This document shows positions 50,937-60,272 of a stretch of 64,000 nucleotides of DNA, in pieces. Position 1 is the stretch's first letter; every line of letters begins with the position of its first letter. Source of the DNA: Bradyrhizobium sp. ISRA430 (lineage in GTDB: Bacteria; Pseudomonadota; Alphaproteobacteria; Rhizobiales; Xanthobacteraceae); the NCBI RefSeq assembly GCF_029909975.1, contig NZ_CP094516.1:5642001-5706000 (forward strand), read 5' to 3'. The notes beneath the pieces are model-generated. The model did not search any database. It saw nothing but the letters and a program-made list of their open reading frames with translations, and was not told where the DNA came from. Made by a program: the position numbers and the translations under genes.

Positions 50937-51992
<1,056 letters not shown>

Positions 51993-52074
51993 TCATAGGT
52001 AGGCCAGCCGGACACGCCCGGCAACCCGAACTTGCCCGTGAATCGGCCGAAATTCCGCGATTTTCGTCCCGTGC

Positions 52075-52557
52075 TTAACCCGCCGGCCGGCGGCGGATCA
52101 GGAATTTCTGCGTGCCCTCCAGCACCAGCTCCTTGTGCTGGTTGAACACGGTGCTCGTCAGCGTCACCACACCGGTCGTGCGTCGCGGCACGAGTTCGGT
52201 GACCTCGAGCGCGGGATAGATGGTGTCGTCGGCGAACACGGGCTTGAGGAACCGGCTCGACTGCTCGAGGAAGCCGACGAGGGACTCCTCGACCATGAAC
52301 GGAAACAGCCCCGCCCCTGGCGCGGTGTGGATCAGCGTCTGAAAGCCATGCGCGAGCAGATGCGGCATGCCGCGGGCGCGGCAATATTCGACATCGTAAT
52401 GCACCGGGTGGGTGTCGCCGCTCGCGGTCTGGAACGCCGCAAACACCGCTGATGTCTGGGTGCGGCTCGGCAGCACGAAGCGCTCGCCAACCACGAAATC
52501 CTCAAACCAGCGTTGTGTGGGGATCATGCGGTGCTGGGTCGGGTCGAACTCGCTCAT
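52075..52557 (-). CDS. MaoC-like dehydratase domain protein (hot-dog fold)
   Basis: A 160-residue hot-dog protein. DTHPVHYDVEYCRARGMPHLLAHG is the MaoC signature, with the hydratase-type D-x-x-x-x-H pair; RWFEDFVVGERFVLPSRTQT is the usual start. Such proteins hydrate enoyl-CoA or related thioesters. The ATG at 52557 is chosen because the similarity begins there; the frame runs upstream into a repeat. It lies upstream of obgE, 85 bp away. Confidence 0.9.
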   Translation of the reverse strand: MSEFDPTQHRMIPTQRWFEDFVVGERFVLPSRTQTSAVFAAFQTASGDTHPVHYDVEYCRARGMPHLLAHGFQTLIHTAPGAGLFPFMVEESLVGFLEQSSRFLKPVFADDTIYPALEVTELVPRRTTGVVTLTSTVFNQHKELVLEGTQKFLIRRRPAG

Positions 52558-52714
52558 GTCTGGCGCTCTTTCGTCGGTGGACCACCCATCGCTACCGCGA
52601 TGCGAAGGGTGCGACAATCCGTTCAATTCGTTCGCCGCGGGCTTGTCCCGTGCGCCTGCGCCATTAAAACAACCGCAAGCGAGTCCATTCGCCGCTTCCT
52701 GACGCGTCCTCCGC

Positions 52715-52799
52715 GTCATTGCGAGGAGCCCTTGCGACGAAGCAATCCAGTCTGTGTCCGCAGAGACAGACTGGATTGCTCCGCTTCGCGCGCAATGAC
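52715..52799. repeat. GTCATTGCGAG-type palindromic element
   Basis: About 85 bp, GTCATTGCGAGGAGCCC ... GCGCGCAATGAC, with an inner near-perfect fold-back CAATCCAGTCTGTGTC / GACAGACTGGATTG. Third copy of the family seen at 8306 and 31148. It lies between divergent maoC-like and exporter genes, where their promoters should be. Confidence 0.88.
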
Positions 52800-52820
52800 G
52801 GCTTTCCACGAACGACAGCA

Positions 52821-53735
52821 ATGCCCCTCTTCAAGAATCTCTCCGCCTACGACGACCGCTCCGCGCGCTTGGCCGGCATCGCGCTGATGCTGCTGTCGAT
52901 CTTCCTGTTCTCGTTCGGCGACGCCATTGGCAAGTTCATCGTGGCGACCTATTCGGTGGGGCAGCTTCTGTTGCTGCGCGCCTGTGCGGCGCTCTTGGTG
53001 CTGTCGCCGCTGATCTGGCGGCAGCGTCATGATTTCCTGCGCCTGGAGCGGCCGTGGCTACAGCTCTTTCGCGTCACGCTGTCGACGCTGGAGGTGGCGG
53101 CGTTCTTCCTTGCCACCGTTTACCTGCCGCTCGCCGACGTCATCACCTATTATCTCGCAGGTCCCATCTTCGTCACAGCGATGTCGGCGCTCTTCCTGGG
53201 CGAGAAAGTCGGCTGGCGGCGCTGGACGGCGATCCTGGTCGGCTTCTGCGGCGTCTTGATCGCGCTGCGCCCCTCAGCGCAAACGATCAGCCTGCCGGCG
53301 CTGATCGCGCTCGGCGGCAGTCTGTCGTTCGCGACGTTGATGCTGATCACGCGCAGCCTGCGCAAGACGCCCGACATCGTGATGGCGTCCTCGCAATTTG
53401 TCGGCACGTTCCTGTTGGGCGCGGCGCTGTCCGCATTTCACTGGGTGCCGCCGACCAGGGGCAGCCTCGTCATCTTCGCGCTGGCGGGGTGTGTCTCGGT
53501 AACGGCGCTGTTCTGCGTCAACCGTTCGCTCAAGCTGGCGCCGGCCAGCGTCGTCGTGCCCTATCAATATTCGATGATCGTCTGGGCCGTGATCTTCGGC
53601 TTCGCCGTGTTCGGCGACGTGCCGCAGGTCGCCACCATCATCGGCGCCGCCATCATCATCGGCGCCGGCCTCTACATTTATTTGCGCGAGCGCGATTTGG
53701 GGCGGCAGGACGAGCAGGTGAATCCGCCGGTGTAA
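52821..53735 (+). CDS. EamA/DMT-family transporter
   Basis: A 304-residue membrane protein with ten predicted helices and two EamA repeats (about residues 17-150 and 160-295). LLRACAALLVLSPL, GPIFVTAMSALFLGEKVGWRRW and YQYSMIVWAVIFGFAVFGDVP are usual drug/metabolite exporter segments. The substrate is unknown. I take the ATG at 52821, where the helix set begins; the upstream extension is repeat DNA. It is on the opposite strand inside an otherwise minus-strand cluster. Confidence 0.9.
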   Translation: MPLFKNLSAYDDRSARLAGIALMLLSIFLFSFGDAIGKFIVATYSVGQLLLLRACAALLVLSPLIWRQRHDFLRLERPWLQLFRVTLSTLEVAAFFLATVYLPLADVITYYLAGPIFVTAMSALFLGEKVGWRRWTAILVGFCGVLIALRPSAQTISLPALIALGGSLSFATLMLITRSLRKTPDIVMASSQFVGTFLLGAALSAFHWVPPTRGSLVIFALAGCVSVTALFCVNRSLKLAPASVVVPYQYSMIVWAVIFGFAVFGDVPQVATIIGAAIIIGAGLYIYLRERDLGRQDEQVNPPV

Positions 53736-53754
53736 GGCCGCGCCAAATAATTCG

Positions 53755-53885
53755 GTCATCGTCCCGGGCAAGCGCAGCGCAGATCCGGGACCCATACCCA
53801 CAGGGAGAAGTTTGGCGAAGACTCGGAGTGGGAGTCTTCGCGCCACAAGCAGTCGTGGTTGGGTCCCGGCCTTCGCCGGGACGAC
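53755..53885. repeat. GTCATCGTCCCGGG-type palindromic element
   Basis: Left end CGTCCCGGGCAAGCGCAGCG, right end CCTTCGCCGGGACGAC; inner GAAGACTCGGAGTGGGAGTCTTCG and TGGGTCCCGG / CCGGGACCCA-like fold-backs. It lies between convergent exporter and GNAT genes. Confidence 0.75.
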
Positions 53886-53946
53886 GCTAGTAAATGTGGC
53901 GGCGATTCTGCCTGCCTCATCCGTGATTGTCGCGTGGCCTGCGCCC

Positions 53947-54540
53947 TTACCTCACCCTTCTCGCGCTGCTCCAGCTCTTCAGCGAAGACCACACGCCGCG
54001 CGAGAGGCGGAAGCAGTCGACCGGCGTGGAGGAGCCCAGCGCCAGGAAGCGGTGCAGCTCGACGCCGCTCCACTGGAAGCCGCACTTCTCCAGCACGTTG
54101 CGCGAGGCCGGATTGGTGACGCGCGCGCCGGCATAGAGGTGGTCGTCATCGAACTCTTCGAAGAAGAAGTCGATCGCGCCGCGCGCCGCCTCGGTGGCAA
54201 AGCCCCGGCCCCAGTGCTCGACGCCGAGCCAGTAGCCGAGCTCGGCATTGTCTGATGTCGAGCAATCGATGCCGACCATGCCGACCGGCGTGGTGTCGTG
54301 CTCGATCAGGAACACGGTCTCGCTGCCGAGCTCGGCGGTGGCGCGGACGAACTCGACGGCATCGTCAGCCGAATAGGGATGCGGCAGGCGGCGGGTGTTC
54401 TCCGCGATGCGGCGGTCGTTGGCGAGCTGGGCAATGGTCCGGACGTCGGCGAGCGTCGGGCGGCGCAGCGTCAGCCGCTCGGTGGCGACGACGCTCGGTC
54501 TCGCCTCGCGCAAGGTCACGCTCGAAAAATCCTGCAACAT
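53947..54540 (-). CDS. GNAT family N-acetyltransferase (RimJ/RimL type)
   Basis: A 197-residue acetyltransferase. TERLTLRRPTLADVRTIAQLAND is the RimJ/RimL-like opening; GYWLGVEHWGRGFATEAARGAIDFFFEEF is motif A with the CoA loop; NPASRNVLEKCGFQWSGVEL is motif B. Its target may be a ribosomal or other protein N-terminus, but that is not established. Genes of this type often lie between rpmA and obgE in Rhizobiales. The ATG at 54540 is chosen at the start of conservation. Confidence 0.88.
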   Translation of the reverse strand: MLQDFSSVTLREARPSVVATERLTLRRPTLADVRTIAQLANDRRIAENTRRLPHPYSADDAVEFVRATAELGSETVFLIEHDTTPVGMVGIDCSTSDNAELGYWLGVEHWGRGFATEAARGAIDFFFEEFDDDHLYAGARVTNPASRNVLEKCGFQWSGVELHRFLALGSSTPVDCFRLSRGVWSSLKSWSSARRVR

Positions 54541-54575
54541 CTTCGGCTCCGTCAAAGTCACTAAGTCAAAAGATA

Positions 54576-54602
54576 AGGGGAGGCCGGTTTCCCGCCTCCC
54601 CT
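54576..54602 (-). terminator. Terminator hairpin between rpmA and the GNAT gene
   Basis: AGGGGAGGC / GCCTCCCCT perfect 9-bp stem, 9-nt loop, followed on the minus strand by TATCTTTTG. A second hairpin, CCGCCGG / CCGGCGG, lies at 54618-54646 closer to rpmA. Together they probably end the rplU-rpmA transcript. Confidence 0.8.
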
Positions 54603-54666
54603 GGAGCCTATTTGTGGACTCCGCCGGTTTGGTCAGGACCCGGCGGACTCCAATTTGATCCGCCGT

Positions 54667-54936
54667 CTATTCAGCCGCCTCTGCGATCGGAAGCACCGAT
54701 ACGAATGTGCGGCCGTTGGCTTTGGCCTGGAACGCAACACGACCTTCCACCTTGGCGAACAGAGTGTGGTCCGTGCCCATGCCGACATTAAGGCCGGGAT
54801 GCCAGGTGGTGCCGCGCTGACGTGCGATGATGTTGCCGGGAATCACATGCTCCCCGCCGAACACCTTGATGCCAAGGCGCTTGCCCTTTGAATCGCGTCC
54901 GTTGCGCGATGAACCGCCTGCTTTTTTGTGAGCCAT
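54667..54936 (-). CDS. rpmA: 50S ribosomal protein L27
   Basis: An 89-residue L27, starting [20 protein letters not shown], the conserved N-terminal tail that reaches the peptidyl transferase centre. [19 protein letters not shown] is the core motif. No N-terminal presequence is present, as in most Gram-negatives. It follows rplU. Confidence 0.99.
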
Positions 54937-55038
54937 GGCTCGTCTCCGAAATCCTACGTATCTCTAGATCAATTCCTTGACGGAATCATTTCACAATTTC
55001 TCACGCATCAATTCGTGAATTGGCGTGATCACGATTGG

Positions 55039-55413
55039 TTATTCGGCGGCTTCCTTCGCCACCTTTTCCTTCTTCGGACGCGGGCCCTTGGTGGGCTTGG
55101 CGTTGTCCGTCAGGATCTCGGTGACGCGCAGCACCGTGATCTCGTCGCGGTAGCCGCGCTTGCGGCGCGAGTTCTTGCGGCGGCGCTTCTTGAACGCGAT
55201 GACCTTCGGGCCACGCTTGTGGTCGAGCACCTCGGCCGCAACGGATGCACCGGCAACCGTCGGGACGCCCAGGACCGGCGTGTCGCCGCCGACCACCAGA
55301 ACTTCATTCAACTGCACGATCGTGCCGACTTCACCGGCGATCTTGCCAACTTCCAAGACATCATCCGGAACGACACGGTACTGCTTGCCGCCGGTTTTGA
55401 TGACTGCGAACAT
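55039..55413 (-). CDS. rplU: 50S ribosomal protein L21
   Basis: A 124-residue L21: [24 protein letters not shown] at the start and [25 protein letters not shown] near residue 90. It has a C-terminal extension rich in Lys, Ala and Glu (about 20 residues beyond the E. coli length), common in alphaproteobacteria. It lies upstream of rpmA. The 170 bp upstream include a GC-rich hairpin near 55440-55475 that may be a leader. Confidence 0.98.
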
Positions 55414-55750
55414 CGTTTTCTTCCTTCGTGTTCAATCCCGGCCTCGAGACGCGCATGCGTCCGGGTCGGCTTTTTGTCAGTCGCTATGGGTTTACGATTT
55501 TTGCGCGGTGGGGTTATCCCATTGAAAAAACCACGCAAAAGCAAGCGGCGCGAGAACTCCCGCGCCGGATGGCCGGACTTATAGCGGCTTAAGGACGCGA
55601 GTCAAGGAAAACCGGGCCGAAAACGGCCCGAATCTGAGGGATTTGGCCGTCTTTCACGGCTCCGGACCTGGCCAGGGATAATCGGCCTTCGCTGCAACCA
55701 ACGGGTTCCCCCACCGTTGTCCCCGGTATTTCGAGCGGGCAAGGGCTCCC

Positions 55751-56893
55751 ATGGCAACAGACGAGTTGGTCAAGACGACGGGCATCGCCAACCACGGCGC
55801 AAGCCGCTTGCCGTCGGTGGATGTCGACAGCTTCAACATCGAGATGAAGGACGAGGACGGCTTTCTCGGCGACCGCGCCAGCAAGGGCGCATTCCGCGAG
55901 ATCCTCGACCGCTGGCGCAAGCCGCTGCGCAAGACCGGGGAGGACCCGTTCGGCAAGGAGCCGTCGGAGAACATCAGCAAGAAGACGCTGGATGAGATGC
56001 TGGTTGGGGACGACACCGAGGCGTCGGCCGTGGTGCACAGCGCGATCGAGGAATTTGCCCAGGAGCTCGCCCATGTCACGCGCCGGTTCCTCAAGTCGAA
56101 GGCATGGGCCAAGACGGAGCGGATCGTGGTCGGCGGCGGCTTTCGCGATTCCAGGCTCGGCGAACTCGCGATCGCGCGCACCGAGATCATCCTGATCTCC
56201 GAGGGCTTCAAGATCGACATGCGGCCGATCCGGCACCATCCGGACGAGGCCGGCCTGCTCGGCGCGCTGCATCTGGCGCCGTCCTGGATTTTCGAGGGTT
56301 ACGACGCCATTCTCGCCGTCGATATCGGCGGCACCAATATCCGCTGCGGCGTGGTGGAAACCTCCTGGAAGAAGGCGAAGGACCTGTCGAAAGCTTCGGT
56401 CTGGAAGTCCGAGCTGTGGCGTCATGCCGACGATGAGGCCACCCGCGAAGGCACGGTGAAGGGGCTGACGAAGATGCTGAAGGGATTGATCGAAGAGGCC
56501 GACAGCGAGAGGCTGAAGCTTGCGCCGTTTATCGGCATCGCCTGTCCCGGTGTGATCAACGAGGACGGTTCCATCGAGAAGGGCGCGCAGAACCTGCCGG
56601 GCAACTGGCAGAGCAGCAAATTCAACCTGCCGGCGAGTCTGATCGAAGGCATTCCGCAGATCGGCGAGCACGACACCGCGATCCTGATGCACAATGACGG
56701 CGTGGTTCAGGGCCTTTCGGAAGTGCCGTTTATGCAGGATGTCGATCGCTGGGGCGTGCTCACCATCGGCACCGGACTTGGCAACGCGCGCTTCACCAAC
56801 CGCCGCAAGGACGGCGGCAACGGCAAAGACCGGGACTCTACGGAGAACGGCAAGAAAAAGGGCAAAAACGACAACAAGAACGACAAGGAGTAA
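55751..56893 (+). CDS. ROK-type sugar kinase-like protein with apparently permuted motif order
   Basis: A 380-residue actin-fold protein. The N-terminal half carries what is normally the C-terminal end of ROK kinases: IVVGGGFRDS (GGG at 128-130) and DEAGLLGALHL (165-175). The normal N-terminal parts then follow: phosphate-1 DIGGTNIRCG (191-200), GIACPG (262-267), catalytic-type aspartate HNDG (D316) and phosphate-2 GTGLGNA (340-346). A Lys/Asn/Asp-rich tail ends it. The ROK zinc motif is absent. A glucokinase-like role is inferred; substrate unknown. Divergent from rplU; no operon partner. Confidence 0.82.
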   Translation: MATDELVKTTGIANHGASRLPSVDVDSFNIEMKDEDGFLGDRASKGAFREILDRWRKPLRKTGEDPFGKEPSENISKKTLDEMLVGDDTEASAVVHSAIEEFAQELAHVTRRFLKSKAWAKTERIVVGGGFRDSRLGELAIARTEIILISEGFKIDMRPIRHHPDEAGLLGALHLAPSWIFEGYDAILAVDIGGTNIRCGVVETSWKKAKDLSKASVWKSELWRHADDEATREGTVKGLTKMLKGLIEEADSERLKLAPFIGIACPGVINEDGSIEKGAQNLPGNWQSSKFNLPASLIEGIPQIGEHDTAILMHNDGVVQGLSEVPFMQDVDRWGVLTIGTGLGNARFTNRRKDGGNGKDRDSTENGKKKGKNDNKNDKE

Positions 56894-57064
56894 CCTTGAC
56901 TGGTTAGGTTAAGGGACGGATTGCGTTGCGAGGCAGCGGCCGCACGCTAGGGTCGAATCGTCGCTTCACCTGGCCGGCGAAGCCGCCCTTCCCGGCTAGC
57001 ATTTCAATGAGCGGCACGGGACCGCCAGTGTTTACCGCGTCTGGCGGTCCCACCCGTTTTGGGG

Positions 57065-57928
57065 TCAGCGCCAGCCTATCCGCTGAAAGAATGCCGCGAT
57101 CTCCGCCGCCGCGCGGTCCGGATTCTCGCGATGCGGGAAATGTCCGACGTCCGGAAACATCGCAAGGTCGAGATCGCCAAAGGTCTCGCCCAGCCGATCG
57201 GCCCAGGCATAGGGAAACAGTGGATCGTGCTCGGCCCAGCGGACGCAGGTCGGCACGGTGATCGGCGGCAGCGGCAGCGCCTCGCCCTTCATCATCTTGA
57301 TTCGGGCTGCATGCGCGGCACGATAATGCGCAAAGCCACCGGCGAGATTGCCCTCCTTGAAGAAGTTGTCGGCGAAGGCGTCGAGGACGTCATCAAAGGC
57401 CTCCTTGCGGTGGGCCCAATCTTTGAGGAAGTGGCTGATGTAGAGACGGCAGGTCTCGCGGTTCGCGCCGACGAGCCGCGGCGCGATCTCCATCTGGTGG
57501 AAGGACTGGTACCAGATGTGGTTGAGCCGGTCAGGCGCTGCCATGCGCGGTCCGATGCCGGGGTAGACGAAATCGAAGAAGAACAGCCCGCTGAGCCGCT
57601 GCGGCGCCTGCCGCCCCAAGGGCTGCATCACGGCGCCGCCGACGTCATGACCGACGACGCCGAATCGGGTGATGCCGAGCCCATCCATCAGCGCTAGCAT
57701 GTCGGTCGCGTGGCCATCCGGACCATACGGGCCATCCGGCTTGTCGCTGTCGCCGAAGCCGCGCAGATCCGGCGCAATCAGCATGAAGCGGTCTGCCAAC
57801 CGCGTCATCACCGGCTCCCAGGTCAGCCAGAATTCCGGCCAACCATGCAGCAAAAGCAGTGGTTTGCCCCGGCCGGTGTGAACCAGGTGAAAGTTAGCGC
57901 CATTGGCCGTGATCGCGAGATGCTCCAT
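57065..57928 (-). CDS. Alpha/beta hydrolase, epoxide hydrolase / haloacid dehalogenase-like
   Basis: A 287-residue hydrolase. HGWPEFW is the oxyanion HGxP motif, GHDVGG holds an aspartate nucleophile, EHDPLFP the likely acid region, and GHFPHRE the catalytic histidine. An Asp nucleophile points to epoxide hydrolases and fluoroacetate or haloalkane dehalogenases rather than esterases. The cap segment (about residues 130-210) would decide the substrate, which I cannot. The ATG at 57928 is chosen since similarity begins there. It is convergent with the ROK gene. Confidence 0.9.
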   Translation of the reverse strand: MEHLAITANGANFHLVHTGRGKPLLLLHGWPEFWLTWEPVMTRLADRFMLIAPDLRGFGDSDKPDGPYGPDGHATDMLALMDGLGITRFGVVGHDVGGAVMQPLGRQAPQRLSGLFFFDFVYPGIGPRMAAPDRLNHIWYQSFHQMEIAPRLVGANRETCRLYISHFLKDWAHRKEAFDDVLDAFADNFFKEGNLAGGFAHYRAAHAARIKMMKGEALPLPPITVPTCVRWAEHDPLFPYAWADRLGETFGDLDLAMFPDVGHFPHRENPDRAAAEIAAFFQRIGWR

Positions 57929-58062
57929 GGCAGTTCCCCTGGGGATGACGGAGAGGGTGAGACGAGCGGCGGATTTTCGCCTTTCGCGCCTTGTCTGTCC
58001 CGCCATCCTCGCCTATTACACGCCCCGACCACGGGGGTTCCTGCCCCTCATCGGCACCCAAA

Positions 58063-58152
58063 GGAGAGGTGGCAGAGTGGTTGAATGCACCGCACTCGAA
58101 ATGCGGCATAGGTGCAAGCCTATCGGGGGTTCGAATCCCTCCCTCTCCGCCA
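58063..58152 (+). tRNA. tRNA-Ser (anticodon CGA)
   Basis: A 90-nt tRNA with acceptor stem GGAGAGG / CCTCTCC, D-arm GTGGCAGAGTGG, anticodon stem CCGCA / TGCGG around loop CTCGAAA (anticodon CGA, codon UCG), a long variable arm as in serine tRNAs, T-loop GGTTCGAATCC, and an encoded CCA. It marks the change from the housekeeping cluster to sparse accessory DNA, and tRNA genes of this type are frequent integration sites. Confidence 0.97.
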
Positions 58153-58537
58153 TAAATCGCCCCGTGGACGGAGCCTCGGATATTCAGAGCCGAGAGTAGC
58201 CGCTGGACCGGCAAGCATCCGAAAGCAAAGCGCGCTGTTTCGGCCAGGACAGGTCCGATCGAGTCTTCGCGAGTGGTGATCTTCATCATAGATCGCAAAG
58301 GCCTCGTGCCGTTGCCACAAGTTGATCACGCAACAGTACCATCGCCTGTTGAACAGCAGCGGCCCCACAGAGACAGAACAGGCAGCGAAAGAAAATAACG
58401 GCGGATCCCCGAATCTAAAATCTGTCGGTAAGGGGAACGTCCGCCGCGGCGAGCGGTTGGGAGGACAGTGAGCGGTCGATGCGGAAACAAGCCAAACTAA
58501 AAAGAATGGCAAGTGAAAGCAAAGATCAGTTCACAAG

Positions 58538-58568
58538 CCCCGTCGGGTTACTTCGGTAACCGGCGGGG
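58538..58568 (+). terminator. UUCG-capped terminator-like hairpin with no upstream gene
   Basis: CCCCGTCGGGTTAC pairs with GTAACCGGCGGGG (one G-T pair, one bulged G) around loop TTCG, followed by TCGTTGTTTC. It could end a small RNA or tRNA read-through transcript. The strand is inferred from the trailing T's. Confidence 0.6.
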
Positions 58569-58580
58569 TCGTTGTTTCAA

Positions 58581-58618
58581 GGGGCAGTCTGCGAGGGGCA
58601 GTCTGCAGGGGCAATCTG
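58581..58618. repeat. Short tandem repeat, three copies of GGGGCAGTCTG
   Basis: GGGGCAGTCTGC at 58581-58592 and 58595-58606, then GGGGCAATCTG at 58608-58618, with spacers of 2 and 1 nt. Non-coding, just downstream of the UUCG hairpin. Confidence 0.8.
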
Positions 58619-58717
58619 AATGGGTGGCCGCGCGAGACCGCGATTGAGATTCCTGCCGAGGATGGGGAGGCAGGCGGTTGTCGCGCCTGGTCGAACGGGG
58701 ACCTGAACGATTGGGAG

Positions 58718-58957
58718 ATGCCCATGAGCGGAGCGAACCAAAAGCCTCCGATTTCCCAGCGGGATCCGGCGGAGGGATCTCGCGAAGTGATTGATCGCGA
58801 ATTGGCGCGGCAAAAGACCGACGCAAACCAACAAAACGAAAATCGCAGCAATTCAGGCAAGACGACTGAACCAGGTCACCTTCCGCCGCAAAGGATCGAG
58901 AAAGAACAGCCGAAGAAAACAGGCCGGAGCAAGTCGGGCACGGCAAGAACCCAATGA
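58718..58957 (+). CDS. Small hydrophilic hypothetical protein
   Basis: A possible 79-residue protein, very rich in Gln, Lys, Pro, Ser and Asn and with no hydrophobic segment (e.g. SREVIDRELARQKTDANQQN). A GGGAGATG ribosome-like site lies a few bases before ATG 58718/58724. I know no family. It could be an intrinsically disordered stress protein, or a chance frame; it stands alone and converges on the antiporter gene. Confidence 0.4.
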   Translation: MPMSGANQKPPISQRDPAEGSREVIDRELARQKTDANQQNENRSNSGKTTEPGHLPPQRIEKEQPKKTGRSKSGTARTQ

Positions 58958-58997
58958 TCGGAAACACCTTGTTGAGGAAGCCGGGAACAACGAGAGT

Positions 58998-60272
58998 TCA
59001 GGACATCAGCCTGTACTGGATGATGTAGACCGCCGCTCCGGCGAAATATCCGAGCAGCGCGAGGCCGCTGATCTTTCGCAGATACCAGCCGAACCGGATC
59101 TTCTCTATTCCCATCGCCGCCACTCCGGCGGCCGAGCCGATGATCAGGATCGAGCCCCCGGTGCCGGCGCAGTAGGCGATGAACTCCCAGAGGAAGCTGT
59201 CGGCGGGAAACCGCGCCAGATCGTACATGCCCATCGCGGCGGCAACGAGCGGAACGTTGTCGACGATGGCGCTGAGAAGTCCAAGCAGGAGAACGATCAC
59301 GTCCTGCCGGCCGACTGTCTCGTCCAACCAGCCCGCAAGAGCGGCTAGAATCTTCGAGTGCTCCAGCGTCGCGACGGCGAACAGGATCCCGACGAAGAAT
59401 ACGATGGAGCTCATGTCGATCTGCGTGAGCGCATGGGCGACGGTGACTCGATGTTTCGCATCCGGATCCTTCCGCTTGTGAACGAACTCGCCCACCAGCC
59501 AAAGCAGTCCCAGGCCGAACAGGATGCCCATGAACGGCGGCAGGTGCGTCACTTGCTTGAACGCCGGAACCAGCACCAGAACACCCAATCCCAAGCCGAA
59601 CATCAGCTTGCGCTCGAACGCGGGGGTCTCCGAAGCGCCGAAGCCGCCGGCGGGGGCGAAGGGACGCCCCGCGAGCCAGCCTCCGGCGACGAGCAGCGGA
59701 ACGATCAGGTTGACGAGCGAGGGCAGGAGCAGCGCCTGCACAATCCCGACGGCCGTGACCTGGCCGCCGATCCACAGCATCGTCGTGGTGACGTCTCCCA
59801 TCGGCGACCAGGCGCCGCCGGCGTTCGCCGCGATCACGATCATGGACGCGAACAGCAGCCGATCCGATTCGGCGTCGATGATCTTCCGGATGAGCGAGAC
59901 CATGACGATTGTCGTCGTGAGATTGTCGAGGATGGCGCTCAGGACGAACGTGACAGGGCAGATCAGCCATAGCAGCGCGGTCAGGCTGCGTGTCCGGATC
60001 CGCGAGGTGACGATCTCGAAGCCGTCGTGCGCGTCGATGACCTCGACGATCGTCATCGCGCCCATCAGGAAGAACACGATCTGCGCCGTCACGGCCACGG
60101 TTTCGTTCAGCTCATGGCCGACGCGTTCGTGATCTCCGGTCGAAACCGCGTAGATCGTCCACAGCAGACCGGCGCCAAGCAGCGCGGAAGCGGACTTGCT
60201 GACGCCGATCGGATGCTCGAAAGCAATGGCGGCGTATGCGAGGGCGAAAATGACGACGAGTGCGACGAGCAA
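58998..60272 (-). CDS. nhaD: Na+/H+ antiporter, NhaD family
   Basis: A 424-residue membrane protein with about 11-12 helices and the NhaD/ion-transporter signatures LDNLTTTIVMVSLIRKI and AANAGGAWSPMGDVTTTMLW, whose Asp, Thr and Ser residues serve ion exchange. A second DN pair is in LSAIVDNVPLVAAA. It would exchange cytoplasmic Na+ or Li+ for protons at alkaline pH. It starts with TTG (60272). It lies in the accessory region after tRNA-Ser, upstream neighbour a PadR regulator on the same strand. Confidence 0.92.
   Translation of the reverse strand: MLVALVVIFALAYAAIAFEHPIGVSKSASALLGAGLLWTIYAVSTGDHERVGHELNETVAVTAQIVFFLMGAMTIVEVIDAHDGFEIVTSRIRTRSLTALLWLICPVTFVLSAILDNLTTTIVMVSLIRKIIDAESDRLLFASMIVIAANAGGAWSPMGDVTTTMLWIGGQVTAVGIVQALLLPSLVNLIVPLLVAGGWLAGRPFAPAGGFGASETPAFERKLMFGLGLGVLVLVPAFKQVTHLPPFMGILFGLGLLWLVGEFVHKRKDPDAKHRVTVAHALTQIDMSSIVFFVGILFAVATLEHSKILAALAGWLDETVGRQDVIVLLLGLLSAIVDNVPLVAAAMGMYDLARFPADSFLWEFIAYCAGTGGSILIIGSAAGVAAMGIEKIRFGWYLRKISGLALLGYFAGAAVYIIQYRLMS

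Follow-up and report, generated by a model that had tools for sequence, protein, structure and literature searches.

Here, we describe a gene for a putative ROK-type kinase whose two halves stand in swapped order, found in a 64,000-nucleotide stretch of the Bradyrhizobium sp. ISRA430 genome (contig NZ_CP094516.1, positions 5,642,001 to 5,706,000; hereafter the window). Canonical ROK kinases run through a phosphate-1 motif, the catalytic Asp, a phosphate-2 motif, a sugar/zinc region, an adenosine motif and a C-terminal helix, an order found in none of the 39 aligned members of the family described here. The gene (55751..56893, plus strand, as for all features in this paragraph) begins with ATG and encodes 380 amino acids followed by a stop codon. 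Residues 12-175 (55784..56275) are the equivalent of the C-terminal half of a normal ROK kinase, with a sugar/zinc region devoid of its motifs, an adenosine-type GGG motif (residues 128-130; 56132..56140) and the former C-terminal helix, DEAGLLGALHL (residues 165-175; 56243..56275). A linker leads from the former C-terminus to the former N-terminus (residues 176-185; 56276..56305), and residues 186-352 (56306..56806) are the equivalent of the N-terminal half, with DIGGTN of the phosphate-1 type (residues 191-196; 56321..56338), GIACPG (residues 262-267), the pair N315-D316 holding the catalytic-type Asp (56693..56698) and GTGLGNA of the phosphate-2 type (residues 340-346; 56768..56788), soon followed by the C-terminus. 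A Lys/Asn/Asp-rich tail (residues 353-380; 56807..56890), variable across the family, closes the protein. A first-pass annotation of the sequence had listed these motifs in this order, with DIGGTNIRCG at residues 191-200, and all of them lie at the residues it gave; it had proposed a circular permutation with the joint near residue 180.

The Pfam ROK profile matched the 380-residue protein with an E-value of 1.7e-9 and 38.1 bits (cut-off 22.9), the total for two stretches whose order is swapped, and ROK was the only domain type detected by Pfam. The best stretch placed residues 188-353 on profile positions 2-144; residues 1-180 alone gave a weak match below the cut-off (residues 71-177 on positions 191-292, E 0.033, 14.1 bits). 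For profile-profile comparison by hhalign, an alignment of 39 hand-chosen relatives (A2; 47-80% identical to the 380-residue protein and including 5 of a set of 80 close-relative loci) was compared, in natural and in swapped order, with a profile of 15 normal-order ROK sequences. The normal-order set came from 41 loci that yielded 22 open reading frames fitting the motif patterns, the remaining 7 of which formed a polyphosphate-glucokinase-like profile. In natural order there were two matches, family columns 173-339 to template positions 2-144 (E 1e-10, score 80.6) and columns 4-170 to positions 158-304 (E 6.1e-7, score 55.1). Swapping the halves after residue 180 gave a single 290-column alignment that covers template positions 2-304 of 307 (E 3.5e-16, score 117.8); when the profile was widened to all 22 normal-order proteins, the separate matches scored 96.7 and 46.4 and the swapped alignment 126.4. 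Among 28 cut points tried, scores ranged from 58.7 to 117.8, with the maximum at cuts 178-185. Such a merging of two matches, peaking at these cuts, is predicted by circular permutation of one whole ROK chain, and the order of the 380-residue protein is collinear with that of all 39 relatives.

Structure prediction agrees with the profiles. The full-length model has a pLDDT (predicted local distance difference test) score of 87.9, with values below 50 at residues 355-380, and the models of the two halves, each compared separately, match ROK structures and show the two-lobed ROK fold in this half-by-half comparison; ROK repressors are among the matches. Several results weigh against the permutation. 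Foldseek with the N-terminal half returned nothing at E<=0.001. Swapping the halves of the single sequence scored 37.4 bits against Pfam ROK (natural order 38.1, control rotations 33.2 and 31.7) and still left two stretches, nor were the stretches merged by a single-sequence swap with NCBIfam or in a PDB sequence search. The swap brought no gain against the 7-sequence polyphosphate-glucokinase-like profile (70.3 both ways), and the N-terminal half alone matched Pfam ROK at E<=1 in only 12 of the 39 members (best E 2.2e-5). ROK was nevertheless the commonest Pfam match of these N-terminal halves, and in the profile comparison their columns matched the C-terminal half of ROK. On balance, the 380-residue protein almost certainly has a circularly permuted ROK fold, joined where the first-pass annotation had put the joint.

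In the model, the former C-terminal helix (residues 164-175) continues through residues 176-185, the interval that holds the best cuts, into the former first strand (residues 186-192). The new chain ends lie just past the phosphate-2 loop: from GTGLGNA to the C-terminus there is a median of 11 residues (range 5-102), and the new N-terminus starts close to a His that 38 of 39 relatives share (H15). ROK proteins, among them glucokinases, N-acetylmannosamine kinases and repressors, typically carry an E-x-G-H sugar motif and a zinc motif, C-x-C-G-x2-G-C, the latter missing from some normal-order members. In the normal-order loci, E-x-G-H and the zinc cysteines were present in 6 of 6, between the points that match the new chain ends; among the 39 permuted relatives neither E-x-G-H nor C-x-C was found in any. 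The 90 N-terminal residues once read as an extra segment are not an added domain, as they occupy the place of the ROK sugar/zinc region and the helices that follow it, without the E-x-G-H and Cys motifs. The Lys/Asn/Asp-rich tail, also singled out at that stage, is present in the 380-residue protein and is limited to part of the family in alignment A2.

The permuted order is constant in a family that spans Alpha-, Beta- and Gammaproteobacteria, with members in Bradyrhizobium, Pseudoxanthomonas, Luteimonas, Lysobacter, Stenotrophomonas, Acidovorax, Polaromonas and Bordetella, and in records titled Rhodopseudomonas and Afipia. Among 360 proteins, the best 120 from each of three protein searches with at least 8000 candidates apiece, 335 (the 380-residue protein included) passed a strict test for permuted motif order. 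The other 25 failed a pattern (18 without DIGG[T/S/A/G]N, 5 with other variants, 2 permuted but lacking the last motif); eight of these were inspected and all were permuted, and the normal order was assigned to none of the 360. Five profile searches at E<=0.001, whose genome sets overlap, gave matches in 40 of 297 genomes of the order (two with a partial match only), 13 of 289 of the class (one of them weak, at 21.9 bits in G910), 26 of 398 of the phylum (four being weak normal-order matches), 5 of 200 genomes from the order of G680 (normal-order matches in two) and 15 of 149 from the family of G358 (one with the match split in two). That last gene (G1221:C1:3508995-3510009) appears as two overlapping pieces in different frames and looks broken or misread. 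Full-length permuted proteins score at least 368 bits against the family profile. Leaving aside the G910 match and partial matches in G264, G261, G205 and G1117, no intermediate between the two orders was found in these searches, the best outsiders (L172-L175, L209 and L210) being ROK proteins of normal order that scored no more than 28.3 bits. A single old permutation event would be the simplest reading of this distribution. In a record titled Frankia sp. RB7 (L041), one gene shares 86% identity with the Bradyrhizobium protein; the assembly is probably mislabelled or mixed.

Three full-length permuted copies are present in the ISRA430 genome; the other two (C1:4269044-4270123, seen as L003 and L195, and C1:6709576-6710643, seen as L179 and L180) are without the long Lys-rich tail. 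The only normal-order ROK protein that Pfam detects in this genome (L001, C1:2110087-2110668) has the zinc motif and an N-terminal part like that of a DNA-binding repressor.

Across all 39 relatives the nucleotide-site and catalytic residues are invariant, namely D191, G193, G194, N196, R198, N315, D316, residues 340-346 and the GGG of residues 128-130, with T, S or A at position 195. Seven comparisons gave ratios of nonsynonymous to synonymous substitution rates (dN/dS) of 0.14-0.26, at dS values of up to 1.0. Because of this conservation, we consider it quite probable that the protein is an active ATP-dependent small-molecule kinase. Other invariant residues are specific to the family (G40, W119, W223, Q280-N281-L282 and W286), and together with the missing E-x-G-H they suggest that the acceptor is bound in another manner. 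The putative substrate, tentatively, is glucose or a trehalose-derived sugar. Two observations count against that choice: the absence of E-x-G-H in all relatives means that a standard hexose is not assured, and the ISRA430 genome also encodes a Glk-type glucokinase.

Of the 39 genes, 16 have a strict box of the type recognized by EcfG, GGAAC-N15-19-GTT, in the 260 nt upstream, compared with a mean of 0.52 and a maximum of 4 in 200 mononucleotide shuffles, and with 1/39 inside the gene and 2/39 downstream at the same loci. Both other ISRA430 copies have the strict box upstream, and it was found in none of five loci from outside the class (L167-L171). The published EcfG motif of Sphingomonas melonis is GGAAC-N17-20-GTT, GCAACC-type boxes occur there at EcfG-dependent genes, and an EcfG-dependent gene for general stress protein 26 has a box starting GCAACCAAC (PMC6599016, in excerpt). 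The gene at 55751..56893 has no strict box; a variant, GCAAC-N16-CGTT, lies upstream of it on the plus strand (55694..55718), and a related variant is upstream in 64 of 80 close-relative loci (mean 0.35 and maximum 3 in 100 shuffles). The variant occurs 3 times in the window against 1.37 expected, and about once per 30 kb genome-wide. The box at 55694-55718 is only suggestive, because the loci are close relatives, the pattern is post hoc and its genome-wide count hardly exceeds that of the reversed pattern.

Neighbouring genes were compared in 31 loci, with Pfam run on ten proteins (seven genes of the locus neighbourhoods and kin). Trehalose-6-phosphate synthase and GH15 trehalase-like genes are neighbours in four loci from two families of the order, identified by Pfam for L203 and L205 and by BLAST grouping only for L181 and L185; a trehalose phosphatase gene is also a neighbour in L205. 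DUF892 genes are neighbours in five loci (Pfam for three, BLAST grouping only for L195 and L196). Expression of otsCB in Bradyrhizobium diazoefficiens is EcfG-dependent (PMC8092242, in excerpt). Weighing against stress control are the 23 of 39 genes without the strict box, the strict box on the antisense strand upstream in 6 of 39, and the variant pattern, which was defined after being seen and whose genome count is 286 against 251 for the reversed pattern. Judged from sequence, promoters and neighbours support a role in stress for some members of the family, and stress-response control in Alphaproteobacteria appears reasonably likely. In the window, obgE, rpmA and rplU, named from the look of their translations alone, lie on the minus strand (50937-55413), divergent from the permuted gene, and a tRNA gene at 58063-58149 (plus strand) is the sole Rfam match in 53500-59000.

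Taken together, these results are best explained by a permuted ROK-fold stress kinase that would act on glucose or a related sugar or polyol, be controlled by EcfG and be linked to trehalose, a reading that we hold to be likely as a whole. The opening of the chain would lie after the phosphate-2 loop (GTGLGNA) and before the sugar/zinc region, and the former C-terminal helix would be joined through about 10 residues to the former first strand. Both halves, as modelled separately, would make up a single two-lobed ATPase of the ROK type, in which the nucleotide-site residues are complete and the catalytic Asp is present. As the E-x-G-H loop is missing, the acceptor, perhaps glucose or a sugar or polyol close to it, must be held otherwise than in ordinary ROK kinases. 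Promoters and neighbours suggest that the kinase may be tied to trehalose turnover and that Alphaproteobacteria may produce it as part of the EcfG general stress response. More speculatively, a single fixation of the permutation may have founded a family that then spread on its own. Opening of the sugar loop would have removed the E-x-G-H clamp and created a new acceptor site, and the outcome would be a kinase that is induced by stress, serves the trehalose cycle or another protectant and has a substrate new for ROK enzymes.

The strongest alternative keeps the permuted fold and replaces the hexose with a distinct stress metabolite (a disaccharide, polyol, amino sugar or sugar phosphate), accommodated after the sugar loop was opened. 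The loss of E-x-G-H in 39/39, the invariant G40, W119, W223, Q280-L282 and W286, the stress promoters and neighbours, and a Glk glucokinase already in the genome make this a serious minority possibility, although the Asn-Asp catalytic pair and the overall fold are like those of hexose kinases. It is unlikely that the protein is a sugar- and ATP-binding regulator or sensor with no catalytic activity, like a ROK repressor minus its DNA-binding domain: it shares its fold with ROK repressors, which appear among its structural matches, and lacks E-x-G-H, but D316 and the phosphate-binding residues are invariant in all 39 relatives and Pfam matches no other domain. Fusion of a ROK N-terminal domain to the second domain of a different ASKHA kinase is highly improbable, since the match of the N-terminal half's columns to the ROK profile (E 6.1e-7) directly continues that of the other half (position 144, then 158), the first 16 structural-match rows are all ROK, and ROK is the Pfam family that most N-terminal halves match (12/39). 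A frameshift, misassembly or chimeric artefact in the ISRA430 genome is refuted by the identical order in 39/39 relatives from many genomes, the three copies in the genome itself and the dN/dS values.

To our knowledge, natural circular permutations of two-lobed kinases are rare. Cores within one kinase fold group may be related by circular permutation, ASKHA falling in the ribonuclease H-like group, and the excerpted text of that survey names no permuted ROK protein (Cheek et al., 2005, PMC1079889). The boxes upstream of the permuted family resemble those of the S. melonis EcfG regulon, although neither ROK nor glucokinase occurs in the main text of that paper (PMC6599016). No description of a permuted ROK family was found in the literature searched for permutation in ROK, polyphosphate glucokinases, ASKHA proteins and sugar kinases and for an EcfG link, a scope with most subscription journals and all bioRxiv preprints outside it.

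Members of the family are currently annotated as 'ROK family protein', 'glucokinase' or 'NBD/HSP70 family sugar kinase', so that annotation takes both function and domain layout from an ill-fitting template. Polyphosphate-glucokinase-like ROK proteins were considered as the nearest kin; their 7-sequence profile matched the C-terminal half with E 1.9e-9 and the N-terminal half only with E 0.07, and because of the latter and the swap without gain, no subfamily is claimed. Unlike the permuted family, these proteins (1woq; Bradyrhizobium L114-L119) have the normal order with E-L-G-H. Some Bradyrhizobium genomes (L114-L119) encode them as short, zinc-less, normal-order ROK proteins that resemble polyphosphate glucokinases. 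The family may point to an unstudied enzyme of alphaproteobacterial stress tolerance. With its chain ends now in the sugar-clamping loop of ordinary ROK kinases, it provides a natural experiment on whether these enzymes need an unbroken chain at that loop for domain closure and substrate choice. It is like the ROK family (PF00480) in the profile and structure matches of both halves and in its nucleotide-site and catalytic residues, and differs from it in motif order and in having neither E-x-G-H nor the Cys motif (39/39); because it lacks both the ROK order and E-x-G-H, the 380-residue protein is a circularly permuted relative of ROK and not a canonical member.
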